From a virus: DNA of 64,000 nucleotides. The position numbers and the translations under genes are program-made. The notes below the pieces were generated by a model, which saw only the letters and a program-made list of their open reading frames with translations, had not been told where the DNA came from and searched no databases. The DNA lies in the IMG/VR virus record IMGVR_UViG_3300025400_000011, positions 44,883 through 108,882 of that record; one strand, written 5' to 3'. Positions 12,931 through 52,219 of the stretch are shown here, in pieces (positions within the stretch are counted from its first letter, which is position 1; every line of letters starts with the position of its first letter).

Positions 12931-12937
12931 CTAAATA
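12931..12937 (+). promoter_or_regulatory. Late-type promoter box CTAAATA
   Basis: CTAAATA ends nine bases before the ATG at 12947 in the 28-base gap between two structural genes. Confidence 0.65.
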
Positions 12938-43985: not shown

Positions 43986-44684
43986 ATGGCTACCTACTAC
44001 AATTCTCAAGTAACACAAAATCAAGTTGGCAACAACCCTACCACTTATCAAGGGATTGATTGCAATATCAGCGACACGAGAGCTGCTATACTTTTCAATG
44101 TAATACCTAATCCAGTAAACAGTTTATCAGGTACAGGTAGTGCACAAGCAAACTTTACTTTAAATTACGTGAATACGGCTAATAATACCGGCGTAGAAGG
44201 TCTTTCATCTGGTACAGGTTCCATATTTGTTGACGGTGCTTATCAATGCACTACAGCAACAGGTACAGTATCTTATCTAGCAGGTGGTACATATACACAA
44301 AGCATTAGCGGTGTTGTAATTACAAATGGTGGATTAGGCTATTGGGGTCCAGGTAATGATGGTGCAGTAACTTGTACTTTCTCAGCTCCACAATCCGGTT
44401 CAAATCGCGCAACTGGTGTGCCTATTGTTGGTAACGGTAACATTATTGGCGTACAAATCACTAACACAGGTTCAGGTTATGCTAACCCAGGTTCTGCTAC
44501 AGTAACATTTTCGTCTCCAGTAGCTCACAAAATGTATTTACAAAAGCATGATTATTCTTGCTTTGAATTTACAGTACCTGCTACAGGTAGTAACGGTGGC
44601 GGCGCACAAGCTGTCACATTAACCCCAGTAGGTTATAAAGTAGAAGGTCCAACAAAGCGCCGCAAGTATCTCTTAGGTTACTAA
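43986..44684 (+). CDS. Virion structural protein with GxGY beta repeats
   Basis: A 232-aa protein low in charge. Two related strands occur, VVITNGGLGYWGPGNDGAVT and VQITNTGSGYANPGSATVTF, which is the I-x-N-x-G-x-GY-x-x-P repeat found in many phage tail and baseplate surface proteins. The last 50 residues (KMYLQKHDYSCFEFTVPATG, then KRRKYLLGY) form a separate end. A late-type box precedes it and a strong terminator lies just downstream, inside the convergent cyclase gene. It is probably abundant in the virion. Confidence 0.7.
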   Translation: MATYYNSQVTQNQVGNNPTTYQGIDCNISDTRAAILFNVIPNPVNSLSGTGSAQANFTLNYVNTANNTGVEGLSSGTGSIFVDGAYQCTTATGTVSYLAGGTYTQSISGVVITNGGLGYWGPGNDGAVTCTFSAPQSGSNRATGVPIVGNGNIIGVQITNTGSGYANPGSATVTFSSPVAHKMYLQKHDYSCFEFTVPATGSNGGGAQAVTLTPVGYKVEGPTKRRKYLLGY

Positions 44685-44685
44685 G

Positions 44686-46740
44686 TTATTTCGACGTAGC
44701 TCTATAAACTCCGTCCCAATCAGCTCCAAGGTTAGCTCCTTGGAGCTCTTTTATTCTCTCTAGCATAGCCTCGTAGTACTTTTTGAGTTCAGGATTGTAT
44801 TTCTTTAACGCTGTAGCTAGTTGTATGGCTTCATCCCATTTTTGAGTTCTATAATCTATTAAGAACGCTTCGTGCATTCTGTTTACTTCTGTAACCATCT
44901 CGGTTAAGCTGTTTTCTAATATAGTGTAAATTCTAACACCTTCTTTTTTACCCTTAACTGCTATACAGTCAAGTTCAAAACATTGATAGTCGTTTTTAAC
45001 GTATTTGTGCGTTACCGGTCCAACAATAATACGCACCCCATACGGTTTTGATTGTCCTTCTAGACGAGAAGCCAAGTTGACACCATCCCCTAAGCATGTA
45101 TAATCAAAGCGCTGAGTACTACCCATATTACCTACTACTACAGAAGCAGTATTGATACCTAAACCCATACCAAATGCTGGTATACCTTCTTTAGTTATTT
45201 CTTCATTAAACGTGTCAAGTCTCTTTAGCATTTGCATAGCAGTCTTAACAGCATTACGAGCATGATCTGGATCATCTAAAGGAGCGTTCCAGAAAGCCAT
45301 TTGTGCGTCACCAATATATTTGTCGAGGGTACCGTCGTTATCTAATATGGCTTGAGTCATAGCAGTCATATAACGATTCATTATCATTGTCAGACCTTGT
45401 ACGTCTTTACCATAATGCTCTGATATAGTTGTGAAGCCTCTTACATCAGTAAACATAATAGATAACTCTCTTTCATCTCCACCAAGCTTTAACAAACCTG
45501 GATTTTTTTGTAGTTTCTCTACTAATGCTGCACTTAAATAAGTACCAAATTGCTTCTTGATCTGCTGCTTTAACTTAAACTCCATTACAAATCTAAAGAA
45601 TATAGCACCTACCCAAGGCAGCAATACCGCTAAAGTAGGCCAAGTATAATCCGTAAGATATCCGTAATTAGCAAATAAGCGTAATCCAATAAAATAAGGT
45701 ACACATAAGAATGCTGTGATTAGTAGGCCATTTAGGATATACCCCAAATAACAAGCAGCAACAATAAGAATAATAGCAAGTATAATACCACCTGTAAGCT
45801 CATATAGATCGAATGTTGAGGGCCTTTGTAATCTGCTGCTATCTATCAACATTTGCAAGGTTTGAGCAGATACCTCATACCCTTGGGAAATACCAACAGG
45901 AGTAGCTACAGTATTATTTAGGCCTTCTGCAGTTAAAGCAATGAATACTATCTTATCTTTAACAATGGACCAGTTAGCATCTGCAAATGAAACCGAATCA
46001 AATGTGTATTTAAAGTTTATCCACACTCTACCGTTAGCATCAGTAGCGATAGGTGGCGTGCCTTTAACTCTAATAGCCTGTACTCCAGCTTGATCTACTT
46101 TAGCTTGATAAGACTCTTCTCCACCAAACATTCTTAGTGCTTCTAAAGGTATAGTGGGGTAGGTTTCTTTCTTTACTTGTACTACTAACGGTAAACGTCT
46201 CGTAACTGAGTCTATTTCAGGGGTTGTTAACAACATACCGACACCGCCCGACGACTGACCTATCTCTTTAGTTGGTCCAATAGCGGCAGGGTACGTATAT
46301 AACCAATCACCTAAGTCTCCACCTATTGCTGCTAAACCTCTTGGTACAGGCTGTCCTTTACCTTTTTGTGCTGCTGATTGTGCAGTTATTACTGGATATT
46401 TTTGTAAAGTACTATTAAATATTGTATCACCACCTAATCTATCTTTCTCTGAAAATAGAATAGGCATAACAACTAACTGCGCACCATTATTAAATGCTTT
46501 TTCCAAACCTTCGCTCAATACTGCTCTGGACATCGGCCACTGGCCAAACTTGTCTAACGTCGCCTCGTCTATGGTTACTACAACAATATTATTACTTTTT
46601 ACTTTACTTTGTTGCCTTTGATAATAATCTAATCCTTTTAAGCGGGCTGTTTCAATAAAAAACGGATCCTTTATTCTTAATATAACTAGTCCAGCAAGGA
46701 TAGCAAACCCAGTGAGCATTATCTTATATGTATGTTTCAC
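44686..46740 (-). CDS. CHASE2-domain adenylate cyclase (class III)
   Basis: The gene is 684 aa from GTG 46740, five bases after the minus-strand TAAATA box; the ATGs at 46719 and 46803 are alternatives. One membrane helix (MLTGFAILAGLVILRIKDPF) leads into a periplasmic CHASE2 sensor (LKGLDYYQRQQSK, then VTIDEATLDKFGQWPMSRAV, then DWLYTYPAAI). Three membrane helices follow, then a class III cyclase. LSIMFTDVRGFTTISEHYG and KYIGDAQMAFWNAP hold the two metal aspartates, and GDGVNLASRLEG holds the Asn/Arg pair. The Lys before YIGD and the DYTCLG segment favour ATP, so cAMP is expected. Bacterial CHASE2 cyclases often lie near FecR genes, as here. An intact inner-membrane sensor cyclase in a phage is remarkable. 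Confidence 0.9.
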   Translation of the reverse strand: MKHTYKIMLTGFAILAGLVILRIKDPFFIETARLKGLDYYQRQQSKVKSNNIVVVTIDEATLDKFGQWPMSRAVLSEGLEKAFNNGAQLVVMPILFSEKDRLGGDTIFNSTLQKYPVITAQSAAQKGKGQPVPRGLAAIGGDLGDWLYTYPAAIGPTKEIGQSSGGVGMLLTTPEIDSVTRRLPLVVQVKKETYPTIPLEALRMFGGEESYQAKVDQAGVQAIRVKGTPPIATDANGRVWINFKYTFDSVSFADANWSIVKDKIVFIALTAEGLNNTVATPVGISQGYEVSAQTLQMLIDSSRLQRPSTFDLYELTGGIILAIILIVAACYLGYILNGLLITAFLCVPYFIGLRLFANYGYLTDYTWPTLAVLLPWVGAIFFRFVMEFKLKQQIKKQFGTYLSAALVEKLQKNPGLLKLGGDERELSIMFTDVRGFTTISEHYGKDVQGLTMIMNRYMTAMTQAILDNDGTLDKYIGDAQMAFWNAPLDDPDHARNAVKTAMQMLKRLDTFNEEITKEGIPAFGMGLGINTASVVVGNMGSTQRFDYTCLGDGVNLASRLEGQSKPYGVRIIVGPVTHKYVKNDYQCFELDCIAVKGKKEGVRIYTILENSLTEMVTEVNRMHEAFLIDYRTQKWDEAIQLATALKKYNPELKKYYEAMLERIKELQGANLGADWDGVYRATSK
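44722..44755 (+). terminator. Intrinsic terminator inside the 3' end of the convergent cyclase gene
   Basis: AGCTCCAAGG (44722-44731) pairs perfectly with CCTTGGAGCT (44738-44747), followed by CTTTTATT. It would end plus-strand transcripts coming from the structural gene at 43986 while also being coding sequence of the minus-strand cyclase. Confidence 0.75.
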
Positions 46741-46745
46741 TTGTA

Positions 46746-46751
46746 TATTTA
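46746..46751 (-). promoter_or_regulatory. Late-type promoter box TAAATA (minus strand) for the cyclase gene
   Basis: On the minus strand TGTAAATA ends five bases before the GTG at 46740, which is why that start is preferred. Confidence 0.55.
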
Positions 46752-46762
46752 CAAATAACCAA

Positions 46763-48580: not shown

Positions 48581-49006
48581 ATGAACAATAAAATTACTTG
48601 TACCAGGTATCACGACCTATCAGTTGGACACAGAGTGTGTGGTCAAGGCGGTAAGTGTGAAAATCTTCACGGTCATAACTACCGTATACACCTCACAGTA
48701 GAAGCAGAACAGTTAGATACTGTTGGTCGAGTTATGGACTTTTCTGTTATTAAAGACAAGTTTGTTATATGGTTAGAGCAGCAATGGGATCATAAGTTCT
48801 TGGTTTGGGAAAACGATCCGTTTACAGATACATTAAAAAACTTAAACCCAGAAGGTGTTGTTGTAGTGCCTTTTAACCCAACTGCAGAAAACTTAGGTCA
48901 GCACTTAGTCAACGTTATTGGACCTCAGCAACTTGCTGGTACTAATGTTAAGCTTGTTAAGGTTAATATTGAAGAGACTCGTAAGTGTAGTGTTACTGTT
49001 GAGTAA
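48581..49006 (+). CDS. queD: 6-carboxy-tetrahydropterin synthase (QueD/PTPS family)
   Basis: A 141-aa protein of normal family length. Zinc ligands are H17 (SVGHRV), H30 and H32 (ENLHGHNYRI); the catalytic cysteine is C26 (GGKCENLHG); the DFSVIKD, WDHKFL and EETRKC segments complete the active site. QueD turns dihydroneopterin triphosphate into 6-carboxytetrahydropterin, the first dedicated step to 7-deazaguanines such as preQ0, used in tRNA queuosine and in phage DNA protection. No QueC, QueE, FolE or DNA transglycosylase is visible in the window, so either the rest lies elsewhere or the host supplies it. Its end overlaps the convergent FecR gene by 14 bases. Confidence 0.9.
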   Translation: MNNKITCTRYHDLSVGHRVCGQGGKCENLHGHNYRIHLTVEAEQLDTVGRVMDFSVIKDKFVIWLEQQWDHKFLVWENDPFTDTLKNLNPEGVVVVPFNPTAENLGQHLVNVIGPQQLAGTNVKLVKVNIEETRKCSVTVE

Positions 49007-49943
49007 TATTCATTAACACGCCATCTCCAGAGCCCTGCTTTGCTTTAGCGGTACCGCCTGTGTACTTGTATATAACTTGAGCATTAGTAGTTTTAGGTAC
49101 AGATATATGTAGTACGTTTCCACCTACTGATGACTTTAATATAGCATCAGTGTTTTCTTCAACGAATACAAACTTGTTAGGATCGATAACCTCGATAACC
49201 TTAATATCTTCTGGTTTAATACCGTTATTGTTGAGATTATCTTTTTCGTGGCTATCAGTTTTTTGTTTTGCTACATCAAATACTGGTTTAGGACTATCAA
49301 GTAATAGGTTATTACCAACACCACCCTCATCCATATTAAGAATAACAGGAGGAGAAGGCATTGTTTGAGCGGAAGCTACATAGGTACCTTCAAATGCTTT
49401 ATCTAAAGTAACTTTACCTGCTGCTGTAGATACGTCAATACGACCAACTATGTACTGACCGTTTCTTCTATCTAATGCCGGTAGTAGAATAACCAAGCTT
49501 CTACCCATTTCATCTACAGCGAGACTCACATCAGTACCACGAACAGCTATACTCGCTGTAGGTGTAGTAACTGCAACACTATTGCTATTATGATGAGCTA
49601 ACTTACCTGAAGTATATCTCAATGTACCTAAAGCAGCCTTAAAGCCTATTTTACCGTTACCTGTGGAAGGATCATACACAAACGTATCTATTAAGAGTTT
49701 ACTGTGCTCTGTTACTTTTACTTCTGTATCATCTGCAAACTTTATATTAGTACGAGCTTCAAGTGTCTCCACAGTATCATTCATTTCTACCCCAGTCTTT
49801 AACTCGCACTTAATAAATTCACTACCTCTGGTTATACGGGTAGGTCCTGTAATAGAAGTAATCTGTCCTGCAGCACCAAATGCTACAGCACATGACAATA
49901 CTGTTAGTAGAAAGAATAGTATTGTAAGAGTAACAAGTTTCAT
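48993..49943 (-). CDS. Secreted FecR-domain protein
   Basis: A 316-aa protein with a signal peptide (MKLVTLTILFFLLTVLSCAV, cleavage probably after AFGA). Residues about 30-190 are a FecR-type beta domain: GPTRITRGSEFIKCELKTGV, then IKFADDTEVKVTEHSKLLI, then AALGTLRYTSGKLA, then TPTASIAVRGTDVSLAVDEM, whose TPTAxxAVRGT end is diagnostic. The C-terminal third is Asp/Asn-rich. It lacks the membrane helix of TonB-linked FecR regulators and so belongs to the free periplasmic group often found with CHASE2 cyclases. It lies downstream of the curlin-like gene and its terminator and has its own late-type box. Confidence 0.85.
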   Translation of the reverse strand: MKLVTLTILFFLLTVLSCAVAFGAAGQITSITGPTRITRGSEFIKCELKTGVEMNDTVETLEARTNIKFADDTEVKVTEHSKLLIDTFVYDPSTGNGKIGFKAALGTLRYTSGKLAHHNSNSVAVTTPTASIAVRGTDVSLAVDEMGRSLVILLPALDRRNGQYIVGRIDVSTAAGKVTLDKAFEGTYVASAQTMPSPPVILNMDEGGVGNNLLLDSPKPVFDVAKQKTDSHEKDNLNNNGIKPEDIKVIEVIDPNKFVFVEENTDAILKSSVGGNVLHISVPKTTNAQVIYKYTGGTAKAKQGSGDGVLMNITQQ

Positions 49944-49948
49944 AGTAA

Positions 49949-49954
49949 TATTTA
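49949..49954 (-). promoter_or_regulatory. Late-type promoter box TAAATA (minus strand) for the FecR gene
   Basis: On the minus strand TGTAAATA ends five bases before the ATG at 49943, directly after the terminator of the curli genes. Confidence 0.65.
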
Positions 49955-49956
49955 CA

Positions 49957-49982
49957 TTAAAAAAGCCCGCCTAAGCGGGCTT
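49957..49982 (-). terminator. Intrinsic terminator of the curli-like operon
   Basis: On the minus strand AAGCCCGC pairs with GCGGGCTT around a 4-base loop and is followed by TTTTTT. It lies 20 bases after the stop of the curlin-like gene. Confidence 0.9.
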
Positions 49983-50001: not shown

Positions 50002-50685
50002 TTATGGACTCGACTGAGAGATTGTTACATTGTTGGAACTACCAGTTAAGTTATATTGCAACGTTTGTGTTGTCGTACCGGATTGAGATACGGTCAAGTT
50101 GTTGCTATTACCGTTAACTGTTACTGTCTGGTTATGCCCAGATGTGCCTGTTACTAAACCTGTCTGAGTTAAAGCAAAAGTATTACTATTGCCAGCAACT
50201 GTATAGTCAAGTTTGTTATAGGAACCATTTGCTACACCAATGTCAAATGAGTTACTGTTACCAGCAACGTCAAATGCAAAGGTACCGTGAGCTGTAGTAG
50301 CTTGTGCTGTACCAGTATGTGTTCCGTCATTATTAAATACCATTGAGTTAGAACCACCAGCAAACACTGCACTAAAGTTATTATTAGCACCGTTCATAAA
50401 CAGCTTTTGAGTGTTGCTATCGCCAGTGTTCCATAACTTAAATGTGTAGTTGTCTCCAGTTAAATTGAAGTCAATAGCATTGTTATCACCAATTTGCTTG
50501 ATGTTGAAGGTACCATTATCACCGGTAATGGTGGATTGGGACCCGTTTGCGCCGATCCTGTTAGATGCGCCTGTTTGAGTAACAGTGTCTGTAGCAGAGG
50601 TCGAAATCTGATCCAAGTAGATCTGATTTTGAGCCTTTACCGAGACAGCTAATACTACAAAGAGTAATAGTGTTAAGTATTTCAT
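50002..50685 (-). CDS. Curlin-repeat (CsgA/CsgB-like) secreted protein
   Basis: A 227-aa protein with a signal peptide (MKYLTLLLFVVLAVSVKA). The rest is a chain of about nine degenerate curlin-type repeats of roughly 20-22 residues: TVTQTGASNRIG, NIKQIGDNNAIDFN, KLWNTGDSNTQKLF, DVAGNSNSFDIG, TVAGNSNTFALTQTG, TVNGNSNNLTVSQSG and so on. The Gln-x-Gly-x-x-Asn core of CsgA (SxxxxQxGxxN) is clearest at the two ends. Curlins cross the outer membrane unfolded through CsgG and polymerise as amyloid on the surface. It is Asn/Gly/Thr-rich with almost no charge, as expected. CsgG and CsgF genes lie directly upstream, so this is the likely export substrate. Confidence 0.8.
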   Translation of the reverse strand: MKYLTLLLFVVLAVSVKAQNQIYLDQISTSATDTVTQTGASNRIGANGSQSTITGDNGTFNIKQIGDNNAIDFNLTGDNYTFKLWNTGDSNTQKLFMNGANNNFSAVFAGGSNSMVFNNDGTHTGTAQATTAHGTFAFDVAGNSNSFDIGVANGSYNKLDYTVAGNSNTFALTQTGLVTGTSGHNQTVTVNGNSNNLTVSQSGTTTQTLQYNLTGSSNNVTISQSSP

Positions 50686-50699
50686 AGGGGTGTTGCCAA

Positions 50700-50705
50700 T
50701 ACTTA
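50700..50705 (-). promoter_or_regulatory. Possible late-type box variant TAAGTA (minus strand)
   Basis: On the minus strand TAAGTA lies 14 bases before the ATG of the curlin-like gene, next to the end of the CsgG gene. The spacing is longer than usual, so support is weak. Confidence 0.3.
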
Positions 50706-51533
50706 TTACTTTTTACTATTAAAGTTATTACTTCCGTTAACTTTAAACTTCCATAACCCTTTGTGCTCTCCCTGATGGATAAGTTCTATAACACTTTGAT
50801 CTATAGCGGCTCTCAGTGCTAGATTTACTGGCTCATTACCAGCTGCACCAAGTTCTGCTTCACCATATTTTGTTCCATCACTTGAAAATGCCAATGCATT
50901 ACCACTTATTGTAGCACTATATATTGTTTTGGTAACAGCAACGGATATTAATACTTCTCCGGTGTTAGTGCTTACCAACCTTAAACTTGTTGTAATAACA
51001 TCTTTGGAGTATTGTACATTAGCGCCAATACCTAATATGCTTGCCCCATACCCGCCTGTTTGTACATCTGTATCATAACCTATAATACCACCTTCAGCAA
51101 TAACACCTGCAAATAACATTGGTCTTAGTGCACCAGGGGTCTTGTCACTTAAAAAGTCTTCTCTTGTTTGACGATAAAGAGTTCTCTCTTTAATTAAGTC
51201 GTCAAGGTTAGCTCTTTCTAATACTTTAAACCACTTACCGTAGCTTGCCTGTTGTAAAGAGTCTATAAGCCAACTCTCAGCACCTTGAGTTACAGCAGAA
51301 CTGAACAAAGCTAAATTAGTAGCTGTCTTACGTTGACCGGTTTTATCTTCGAACCTATACACAGCAACTGTCATAGTGGGACCGTCAATAGGCGGTAATG
51401 CCTTTAACTGTAAGGACAAAGGACTCTCTTGTACTTCTGGTTTCTCTATGATACGCTTATGCTGAGCAGCTACTCTTAAAGTAGAGCACCCTGAAGTAAG
51501 GAGCAGCAGAAATGCTAAAACAAAATACTTCAT
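50706..51533 (-). CDS. csgG: CsgG-like outer-membrane curli secretion lipoprotein
   Basis: A 275-aa protein, the same length as E. coli CsgG (277). A lipobox LLLTSGC closes the signal peptide, so it should be lipidated and placed in the outer membrane. The sequence follows CsgG closely: AVYRFEDKTGQRKTATN, then AESWLIDSLQQA, then WFKVLERANLDDLIKERTLY, then AEGGIIGYDTDVQTGGYGAS, then LGIGANVQYSKDVITTSLRL, and the end HKGLWKF. CsgG forms a nine-fold beta-barrel channel for unfolded curlins. The family core is intact, so the pore is probably functional. Its start overlaps the CsgF stop by one base. Confidence 0.92.
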   Translation of the reverse strand: MKYFVLAFLLLLTSGCSTLRVAAQHKRIIEKPEVQESPLSLQLKALPPIDGPTMTVAVYRFEDKTGQRKTATNLALFSSAVTQGAESWLIDSLQQASYGKWFKVLERANLDDLIKERTLYRQTREDFLSDKTPGALRPMLFAGVIAEGGIIGYDTDVQTGGYGASILGIGANVQYSKDVITTSLRLVSTNTGEVLISVAVTKTIYSATISGNALAFSSDGTKYGEAELGAAGNEPVNLALRAAIDQSVIELIHQGEHKGLWKFKVNGSNNFNSKK

Positions 51534-51988
51534 TAACCCCCTCCTGGTACAGTTAGTAGTGTACTAATTGGTATGGTCAACGTTGAAGTTGAGTTAGCAA
51601 CAGGATCAAATATACTTAAAGTAGCACTACCATTATCAACACTCCAATTAACATAAGCCCCGCCTGGTAAGTTAAATGTACCAAACGATGGACCGTTTGT
51701 CTGGAATATTTGATTAGTTAACTGAGCGGCTATTTGAGAATAAATACGAGCATTTAAGTTACCAATAAACTGATTAATAGGGGTGTTTTGTGCCGCTGCA
51801 GCTGCTGTTGCTGCTGTGGCTTCTGCTTGAGCCTGAATGGTTACCTTACGATTATATGCTAAAGATTCTATTGTGAGTTCGTGATTAGAATACCCAACAC
51901 CGCTAAAAGCAGGAGACTTAAATTGGAAAGTCTGTTGTGTTGCGTTGGCAAGACTTGCCATAAATGCTAATAATAGCAGGTATTTCAT
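51533..51988 (-). CDS. csgF: CsgF-like curli assembly factor
   Basis: A 151-aa protein with a signal peptide (MKYLLLLAFMASLANA). The mature start TQQTFQFKSPAFSGVGYSN matches the CsgF N-terminus that plugs into the CsgG channel (TFQFRNPNFGG in E. coli, from memory). A helix with IGNLNARIYSQIAAQLTNQI and a beta C-terminus ending in VPGGG follow. An Ala/Gln-rich stretch (EATAATAAAAAQNTP) replaces part of the E. coli neck. CsgF links the CsgG pore to the growing fibre outside the cell. It is the first gene of the minus-strand operon, five bases after a late-type box. Confidence 0.85.
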   Translation of the reverse strand: MKYLLLLAFMASLANATQQTFQFKSPAFSGVGYSNHELTIESLAYNRKVTIQAQAEATAATAAAAAQNTPINQFIGNLNARIYSQIAAQLTNQIFQTNGPSFGTFNLPGGAYVNWSVDNGSATLSIFDPVANSTSTLTIPISTLLTVPGGG

Positions 51989-51993
51989 ATCTA

Positions 51994-51999
51994 TATTTA
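51994..51999 (-). promoter_or_regulatory. Late-type promoter box CTAAATA (minus strand) for csgFG-curlin
   Basis: On the minus strand CTAAATA ends five bases before the ATG of the CsgF gene. It shares the TTAGCTAA core with a plus-strand CTAAGTA box at 52000-52006. Confidence 0.7.
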
Positions 52000-52006
52000 G
52001 CTAAGT
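52000..52006 (+). promoter_or_regulatory. Late-type box variant CTAAGTA, back-to-back with the csgF box
   Basis: CTAAGTA touches an ATG at 52007 and lies 21 bases before the ATG at 52028. With the minus-strand box it makes a near-palindromic divergent promoter. Confidence 0.4.
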
Positions 52007-52027: not shown

Positions 52028-52219
52028 ATGAACGAACAATTCACTAGAACTCTACCTGTATACTTTCCTTCCAAGGACTTTATGACAGTTCTTAAACCAG
52101 ACAATAAAATCTTATTGACTGATATACCAGCAAGCAAGTTACGCTCTAAACAGAACCAAATGTACGTGTTAGCTGATACTTCTGAGGGCTCAGTGCTTGT
52201 ACCAGTAGATAATGGTTAA
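52028..52219 (+). CDS. Small hypothetical protein, 63 aa
   Basis: A 63-aa protein from the ATG at 52028; the in-frame ATG at 52007 abuts the promoter box and would add seven residues. It reads MNEQFTRTLPVYFPSKDFMT, then DNKILLTDIPASKLRSKQNQ, ending SVLVPVDNG. No family is recognised; it seems a small beta-type domain. It is divergent from csgF and overlaps the cyclic-nucleotide-binding gene by eight bases, so it is co-transcribed with it. Confidence 0.6.
   Translation: MNEQFTRTLPVYFPSKDFMTVLKPDNKILLTDIPASKLRSKQNQMYVLADTSEGSVLVPVDNG

Follow-up and report, generated by a model that had tools for sequence, protein, structure and literature searches.

A group of minus-strand genes in the window, the last 64 kb of a linear virus contig of 108,882 b (the record is incomplete), is best explained, with reasonable probability, as a type VIII (curli) secretion cassette that a phage carries and expresses late. 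The terminase of the contig is T4-type, and its best matches, ~33‒36% identical, are found in Sinorhizobium, Rhizobium, and Agrobacterium phages. The earlier note had placed csgF, csgG, and a signal-peptide-bearing curlin-like gene on the minus strand at 50002‒51988, and these open reading frames (ORFs) and their coordinates are exact. That unit is only half of the cassette, to which the genes for a FecR-domain protein and a CHASE2 class III cyclase, lying outside it, also belong (Table 1).

The cassette itself is a variant of a published system, and a receptor gene beside csgF is its new part. A csgF-csgG-curlin-FecR-(second curlin)-adenylate cyclase module has been described in Pelagibacter phages, where podoviruses and HTVC008M-type myoviruses carry this type VIII secretion system (T8SS) (PMC9599517, 2022). 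CsgF and CsgG have also been reported in HTVC008M-type phages (PMC7029224, 2020) and in phage Melnitz (PMC9004378, 2022). The export unit with a linked substrate gene, as earlier proposed, is supported by the profiles, the CsgF and CsgG features, co-conservation (42/42 among the matches listed), and the substrate model, but its implied novelty is lost, since the full CsgF-CsgG-CsgA/B-FecR-AC set is published (PMC9599517).

The order CsgF-CsgG-CsgA/B-FecR with a cyclase is present in the window, with the cyclase set apart from fecR by the insertion of a gene of radical-SAM type, a small ORF, and a QueD-like gene on the plus strand. The cyclase directly follows fecR in the related contigs L005 and L010 and lies ~400 nt from it in L009. 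The cassette region is rich in surface-modifying genes. The stretch 38613‒49006 holds three radical-SAM-like genes (40075, 42171, and 46776), a Nol-like carbamoyltransferase gene (38613), and the QueD-like gene (48581). Rfam and tRNA scans of the window gave no matches.

Table 1 Features of the curli cassette and its surroundings in the window
Feature	Position	Strand	Evidence
CHASE2 class III adenylate cyclase	44686..46740	-	CHASE2 6.7e-40, Guanylate_cyc 7.8e-20
Possible late-type box GTAAATA, 12 nt upstream of cyclase GTG	46746..46752	-	motif
Exported FecR-domain protein	48993..49943	-	PF04773 E 2.7e-7; hydropathy
Possible late-type box GTAAATA, 12 nt upstream of fecR	49949..49955	-	motif
Intrinsic terminator between curlin and fecR	49963..49982	-	AAGCCCGCTTAGGCGGGCTT plus T run
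Curlin-like secreted substrate, 227 aa, predicted all-beta (beta-arch) fold	50002..50685	-	profile, periodicity, model
csgG, outer-membrane lipoprotein export pore	50706..51533	-	PF03783 E 3.2e-47; solved CsgG by phmmer 1.9e-39
csgF, secreted CsgG-pore partner	51533..51988	-	PF10614 E 2.5e-10; alignment with E. coli K-12 CsgF
Late-type box upstream of csgF	51994..52001	-	GCTAAATA; CTAAATAT starts 12 nt before csgF start
63-aa ORF between csgF and receptor gene, start Met 52028 conserved	52028..52219	+	kept in relatives
Cyclic-nucleotide-binding protein (receptor candidate), 220 aa	52212..52874	+	PF00027 E 2.4e-21

CsgG pore and CsgF

CsgG and CsgF both matched, above the Pfam cut-off, the profiles named in the earlier note. 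The csgG start overlaps the csgF stop, and the lipobox of CsgG is TSGC. The predicted mature N-terminus of CsgF is TQQTFQFKSPAFSGVG, and its E. coli counterpart is GTMTFQFRNPNFGGNP. In their alignment, the pore-inserting peptide TFQF-K-S-P-A-F-S-G parallels TFQF-R-N-P-N-F-G-G of E. coli, the pattern common to both being reported as TFQF-K-x-P-x-F-x-G. Alignment of phage CsgG with E. coli CsgG shows that Phe56 is kept and that Tyr51 and Asn55 are not; these three are the constriction residues of the E. coli pore.

A profile search for CsgE (PF10627) found none in the 108.9-kb contig or in five relatives, and CsgE is stated to be absent from the phage and alphaproteobacterial modules (PMC9599517). 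Since two of the three constriction residues are not conserved and CsgE is missing, the gating of phage CsgG seems to differ from that in E. coli. Efficient gated export is not assured, since CsgE was not found and there is only one curlin. An ungated pore, as suggested earlier, is plausible without CsgE; however, the CsgF pore-binding peptide is conserved, and the pore is thus probably fitted with a CsgF ring. CsgB, CsgC, and CsgD were not recognized in the phage cassette. The earlier list of absent csg genes stands for CsgE but is uncertain for CsgB, because one curlin may do both jobs.

Curlin-like substrate

Besides its signal peptide, the 227-aa protein has three stretches that matched PF07012 below threshold (best E 0.0067; 14.3 bits vs the cut-off of 20.7). 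The cut-off is passed by its 59%-identical relative in L010 and by the Melnitz and HTVC008M homologues. The protein contains 12 GxxN turns, compared with 3.6 expected from shuffles, and five successive turns are exactly 11 residues apart (positions 66, 77, 88, 99, and 110). An AlphaFold2 model made with 31 phage homologues is all-beta with successive strands (pLDDT 86, pTM 0.79), and Foldseek matched it to phage models named ‘Curlin associated’ (TM 0.72‒0.83; E 6e-9 at TM 0.83). Against solved structures, Foldseek gave no confident match and no solved curli structure, and the profile alignment with E. coli CsgA/CsgB was weak (probability 6‒7%). Only one curlin gene was found in the window contig. 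The confident all-beta model and its viral curlin matches favor a curlin-like substrate, but the PF07012 score does not reach the cut-off.

Conservation and origin of the cassette

A scan of IMG/VR viruses seeded by the CsgG alignment gave at least 598 confirmed relatives. The kept loci were ranked by CsgG similarity, and the fractions below describe close relatives, not all phages. Among the matches listed, csgF, curlin, and fecR were present in all 42 well-flanked virus loci and the cyclase in 38 of the 42, and a second curlin is common. The order csgF-csgG-curlin-fecR-AC is found in Melnitz, in HTVC008M, and across IMG/VR, and the frames are intact and the order is kept in well over a hundred loci. 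Of the outcomes that the earlier note had named as refuting its reading (no curlin match, no predicted stacked beta-arches, or no co-conservation of the three genes), none was thus seen, although the curlin profile match is below threshold.

These counts bear on a reading already proposed for Melnitz and the pelagimyophages (PMC9004378, PMC7029224), in which CsgG, alone or with CsgF, serves as an open pore of the outer membrane that lets nutrients in or speeds lysis by depolarization, and the curlin is secondary. Although the CsgE gate was not found, as this reading would have it, we consider it unlikely, since every well-flanked locus has a curlin-like gene and fecR along with csgG, a second curlin is frequent (both among the matches listed), and the CsgF pore peptide is conserved. 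Curli genes are missing from the hosts known for cassette phages (PMC9599517), which would suit decaying bacterial cargo without present function. We give that view hardly any credence in light of the intact frames, the conserved order, the at least 598 stretches with CsgG, and the cassette transcripts reported in the sea (PMC9599517).

Comparison of the window with L009 reveals a sharp contrast in identity. The fecR, curlin, csgG, csgF, and receptor genes share 52‒73% protein identity and 42‒55% third-position identity, whereas the cyclase, the 63-aa ORF, a kinase gene, and the gene at 43986 are 94‒98% identical, with 83‒92% at third positions. This contrast indicates that, within flanks of recent common descent, old and divergent alleles have taken the place of the exported genes and the receptor. 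Such allele swapping would be expected for surface-exposed parts.

A 705-kb contig of Hyphomonas sp. TMED17 (L180) holds csgF, csgG, curlin, fecR, and the cyclase in this order between ordinary bacterial flanks. This supports the published alphaproteobacterial origin of the cassette and shows that bacterial curli operons can include FecR and the cyclase; it also argues that the five genes are a working cellular unit. Other apparently bacterial matches were set aside. L176‒L179 and L207, the closest of the apparently bacterial CsgG matches, are 3‒7 kb contigs of metagenome-assembled genomes (MAGs) with phage-type csgF-csgG, and are probably misbinned phage; L182 resembles a T4-like phage contig. 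The affected MAGs are assigned to Pirellulales, Rhodobacteraceae, Pelagibacter, Flavobacteriales, and Sphingobacteriales, and such contigs could mislead surveys of bacterial curli. The csgG fragment of ‘Salmonella phage’ S.Kent 1-2-1 (L003, OR851715.1; 1,499 b) is near-identical to enterobacterial CsgG and is probably host DNA.

FecR protein and CHASE2 cyclase

The FecR protein is homologous to those of the Melnitz and HTVC008M cassettes. It has an N-terminal signal peptide followed by the FecR domain, and hydropathy shows no transmembrane segment beyond the signal peptide. The published reading as an iron-citrate regulator is not supported, since a signal peptide is present and the cytoplasmic sigma-regulating and transmembrane parts are lacking; no sigma-factor partner was seen beside fecR. 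Because these parts of the classical iron regulator are missing, we infer that FecR fits better as a partner of the CHASE2 sensor in the envelope.

The cyclase probably starts at GTG 46740, and the longest ORF extends to 46803. In the numbering of the longest ORF, the metal residues Asp453 and Asp499, together with Lys495 and Arg580, are invariant in seven homologues, and the invariant Lys495 suggests an adenine substrate. The Asn of the class III VN motif is kept in the window phage and is Ser in the Melnitz and L007 cyclases (GDSVSTAAR); given this difference, cyclase activity may differ between cassette groups.

Cyclic-nucleotide-binding protein beside csgF

The receptor candidate is transcribed divergently from csgF and has an intact phosphate-binding cassette, of which Gly90, Glu91, and Arg100 are invariant in eight homologues. 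By Foldseek, its domain groups with those of CRP and cGMP-dependent kinase. For the last 70 residues, the model gives helices at low confidence, and their hydrophobicity is clear in only some members of the family and weak in L010 and L099; membrane anchoring is thus putative. No cyclic-nucleotide-binding protein is mentioned in the published phage-curli descriptions (PMC7029224, PMC9004378, PMC9599517).

Among the matches listed, the receptor gene is back to back with csgF in five contigs, namely the window, L008, L009, L010, and L020, and the next divergent start lies 26‒39 nt from csgF. The 63-aa ORF, which has no Pfam or PHROG match, lies between the two genes in the window, L008, and L009 and is missing in L010 and L020. 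It is 94‒95% identical in L008 and L009 even though both neighbors, csgF and the receptor gene, are swapped for divergent alleles. The receptor family is also present in L098 and L099, where no csg gene was seen in the contig, and in G010 (L259), ~20 kb away from the cassette. Of 50 further virus records, only 4 had a PF00027 protein, two of these being cassette holders, and the Melnitz and HTVC008M genomes have none. Searches of ten bacterial genomes matched essentially the cyclic-nucleotide domain only, leaving the C-terminal part unmatched. Most cassettes among the matches listed have the cyclase without a receptor gene. Pairing of cyclase and receptor is therefore not obligatory, since the receptor family is also present where no cassette was seen.

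Alternatively, the cyclase and a hydrophobic-tailed receptor could form a Pycsar-like switch for killing or exclusion, distinct from the curli genes next to it. PADLOC gave generic matches (cyclase to PycC, 6.8e-25; receptor to PycTIR, 4.6e-13), and PycTM effectors couple a cyclic-nucleotide receptor with a transmembrane domain (PMC11224242). However, these matches cover shared domains only and the receptor candidate has no TIR domain, so membership in Pycsar was not accepted. In addition, the cyclase carries CHASE2 and sits in curli cassettes without the receptor, its active-site Lys495 is invariant, as is typical of adenylate cyclases, and the receptor tail is low-confidence in the model and only weakly hydrophobic in L010 and L099. 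We therefore regard such a switch as very improbable.

Expression signals

The late-type box reported in the earlier note was found 12 nt ahead of the csgF start. Among the matches listed, 38 of 105 loci have TAAATA no more than 32 nt ahead of csgF, compared with 5 of 105 for an equal control stretch, and none of 123 has it ahead of csgG; the motif precedes the cyclase in 23 of 115 relatives (control, 2 of 115) and is not conserved before fecR (2 of 115). Late-type TAAATA boxes are located at 52000, 49955, and 46752 on the minus strand and at 12931, 16330, 43970, 57504, and 58753 on the plus strand, all beginning only 12‒18 nt ahead of a start codon. Late messages would have almost no leader if these boxes are T4-type −10 elements. 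The closing terminator after the curlin gene was likewise found, with a stem at 49982‒49963 of 8 pairs, 6 of them GC. Since the six terminator-like sites in the 12 kb scanned are no more than shuffles give, this call rests on the quality of its own stem. Matches to E. coli-type sigma-70 promoters were at chance level and were set aside.

Proposed function

In the outer membrane of the infected cell, CsgG would assemble into a ring-shaped lipoprotein pore, and the conserved N-terminal peptide of CsgF would plug into this pore. The host Sec system would carry the 227-aa curlin-like protein over the inner membrane, after which the protein would be threaded out through CsgG and fold into a beta-arch fiber unit. 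The exported FecR protein and the CHASE2 cyclase would together act as an envelope sensor making a cyclic nucleotide, probably cAMP, and in the window phage subgroup this signal would be received by the divergent cyclic-nucleotide-binding protein. The surface of the infected cell would probably change at a late stage, so that rival or sister virions would be kept from adsorbing or sibling cells would stay together. The most likely benefit, as we infer it, is a late surface coat that limits superinfection or aggregates cells; superinfection defense and sibling capture have both been suggested in published phage-curli work (PMC7029224, PMC9004378, PMC9599517).

Cyclase and receptor together suggest a phage-encoded second-messenger loop tied to surface-fiber export. 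More specifically, in the T4-like subgroup, a CHASE2-FecR sensor making cAMP and a phage cAMP receptor might time or limit surface-amyloid export during infection, an idea that we put forward only tentatively.

Aggregation of cells belongs to the known biology of curli. In a reading that fits this biology and has been proposed before (PMC7029224, PMC9599517), the fibers make cells stick to one another, which brings progeny to new hosts, and surface blocking is incidental. However, no cell clumping was seen with Melnitz (PMC9004378), and late expression, as judged from the late-type boxes, would leave little time before lysis; we find this reading rather doubtful. A late surface coat is modestly preferred over aggregation or a bare pore, since the curlin is always kept, the exported parts are exchanged, and surface-modifying genes lie nearby.

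A working cassette would mean that a lytic phage equips its host with a secretion system and an extracellular amyloid that may both be new to it, and that the window subgroup also supplies the writer and the reader of a cyclic-nucleotide signal. Given the receptor and the FecR-cyclase pair, export would be expected to follow a cue from the envelope, a prediction that makes the purpose of phage curli testable. Given the spread of the cassette over at least 598 virus stretches with CsgG, the answer is ecologically relevant.

Comparison with known systems

Pycsar systems (PycC with PycTM or PycTIR) also combine a class III cyclase with a cyclic-nucleotide receptor, whereas the window has a CHASE2 sensor domain, no TIR domain, and a secretion-cassette setting. 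The enterobacterial csgBAC/csgDEFG system shares CsgG and CsgF homologues and a repeat-rich substrate; the phage has FecR and the CHASE2 cyclase instead, with CsgE absent and CsgB, CsgC, and CsgD unrecognized. In the Hyphomonas operon, csgF-csgG-curlin-fecR-cyclase keep the same order and strand, but the curlin has 504 aa, the flanks are bacterial, and no receptor of the window family adjoins. The window proteins are 44‒45% (CsgG), 40‒43% (FecR), and 40‒42% (cyclase) identical to those of Melnitz (MZ577098) and HTVC008M (NC_020484), whose cassettes have a second curlin and no PF00027 protein, opposite to the window. The pelagiphage T8SS (PMC9599517) has the same order of CsgF, CsgG, curlin, FecR, and cyclase and likewise lacks CsgC, CsgD, and CsgE. 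The window differs from it in having radical-SAM and QueD genes between the cyclase and fecR, a single curlin, and a csgF that adjoins no histidine kinase gene but a divergent cyclic-nucleotide-binding gene.
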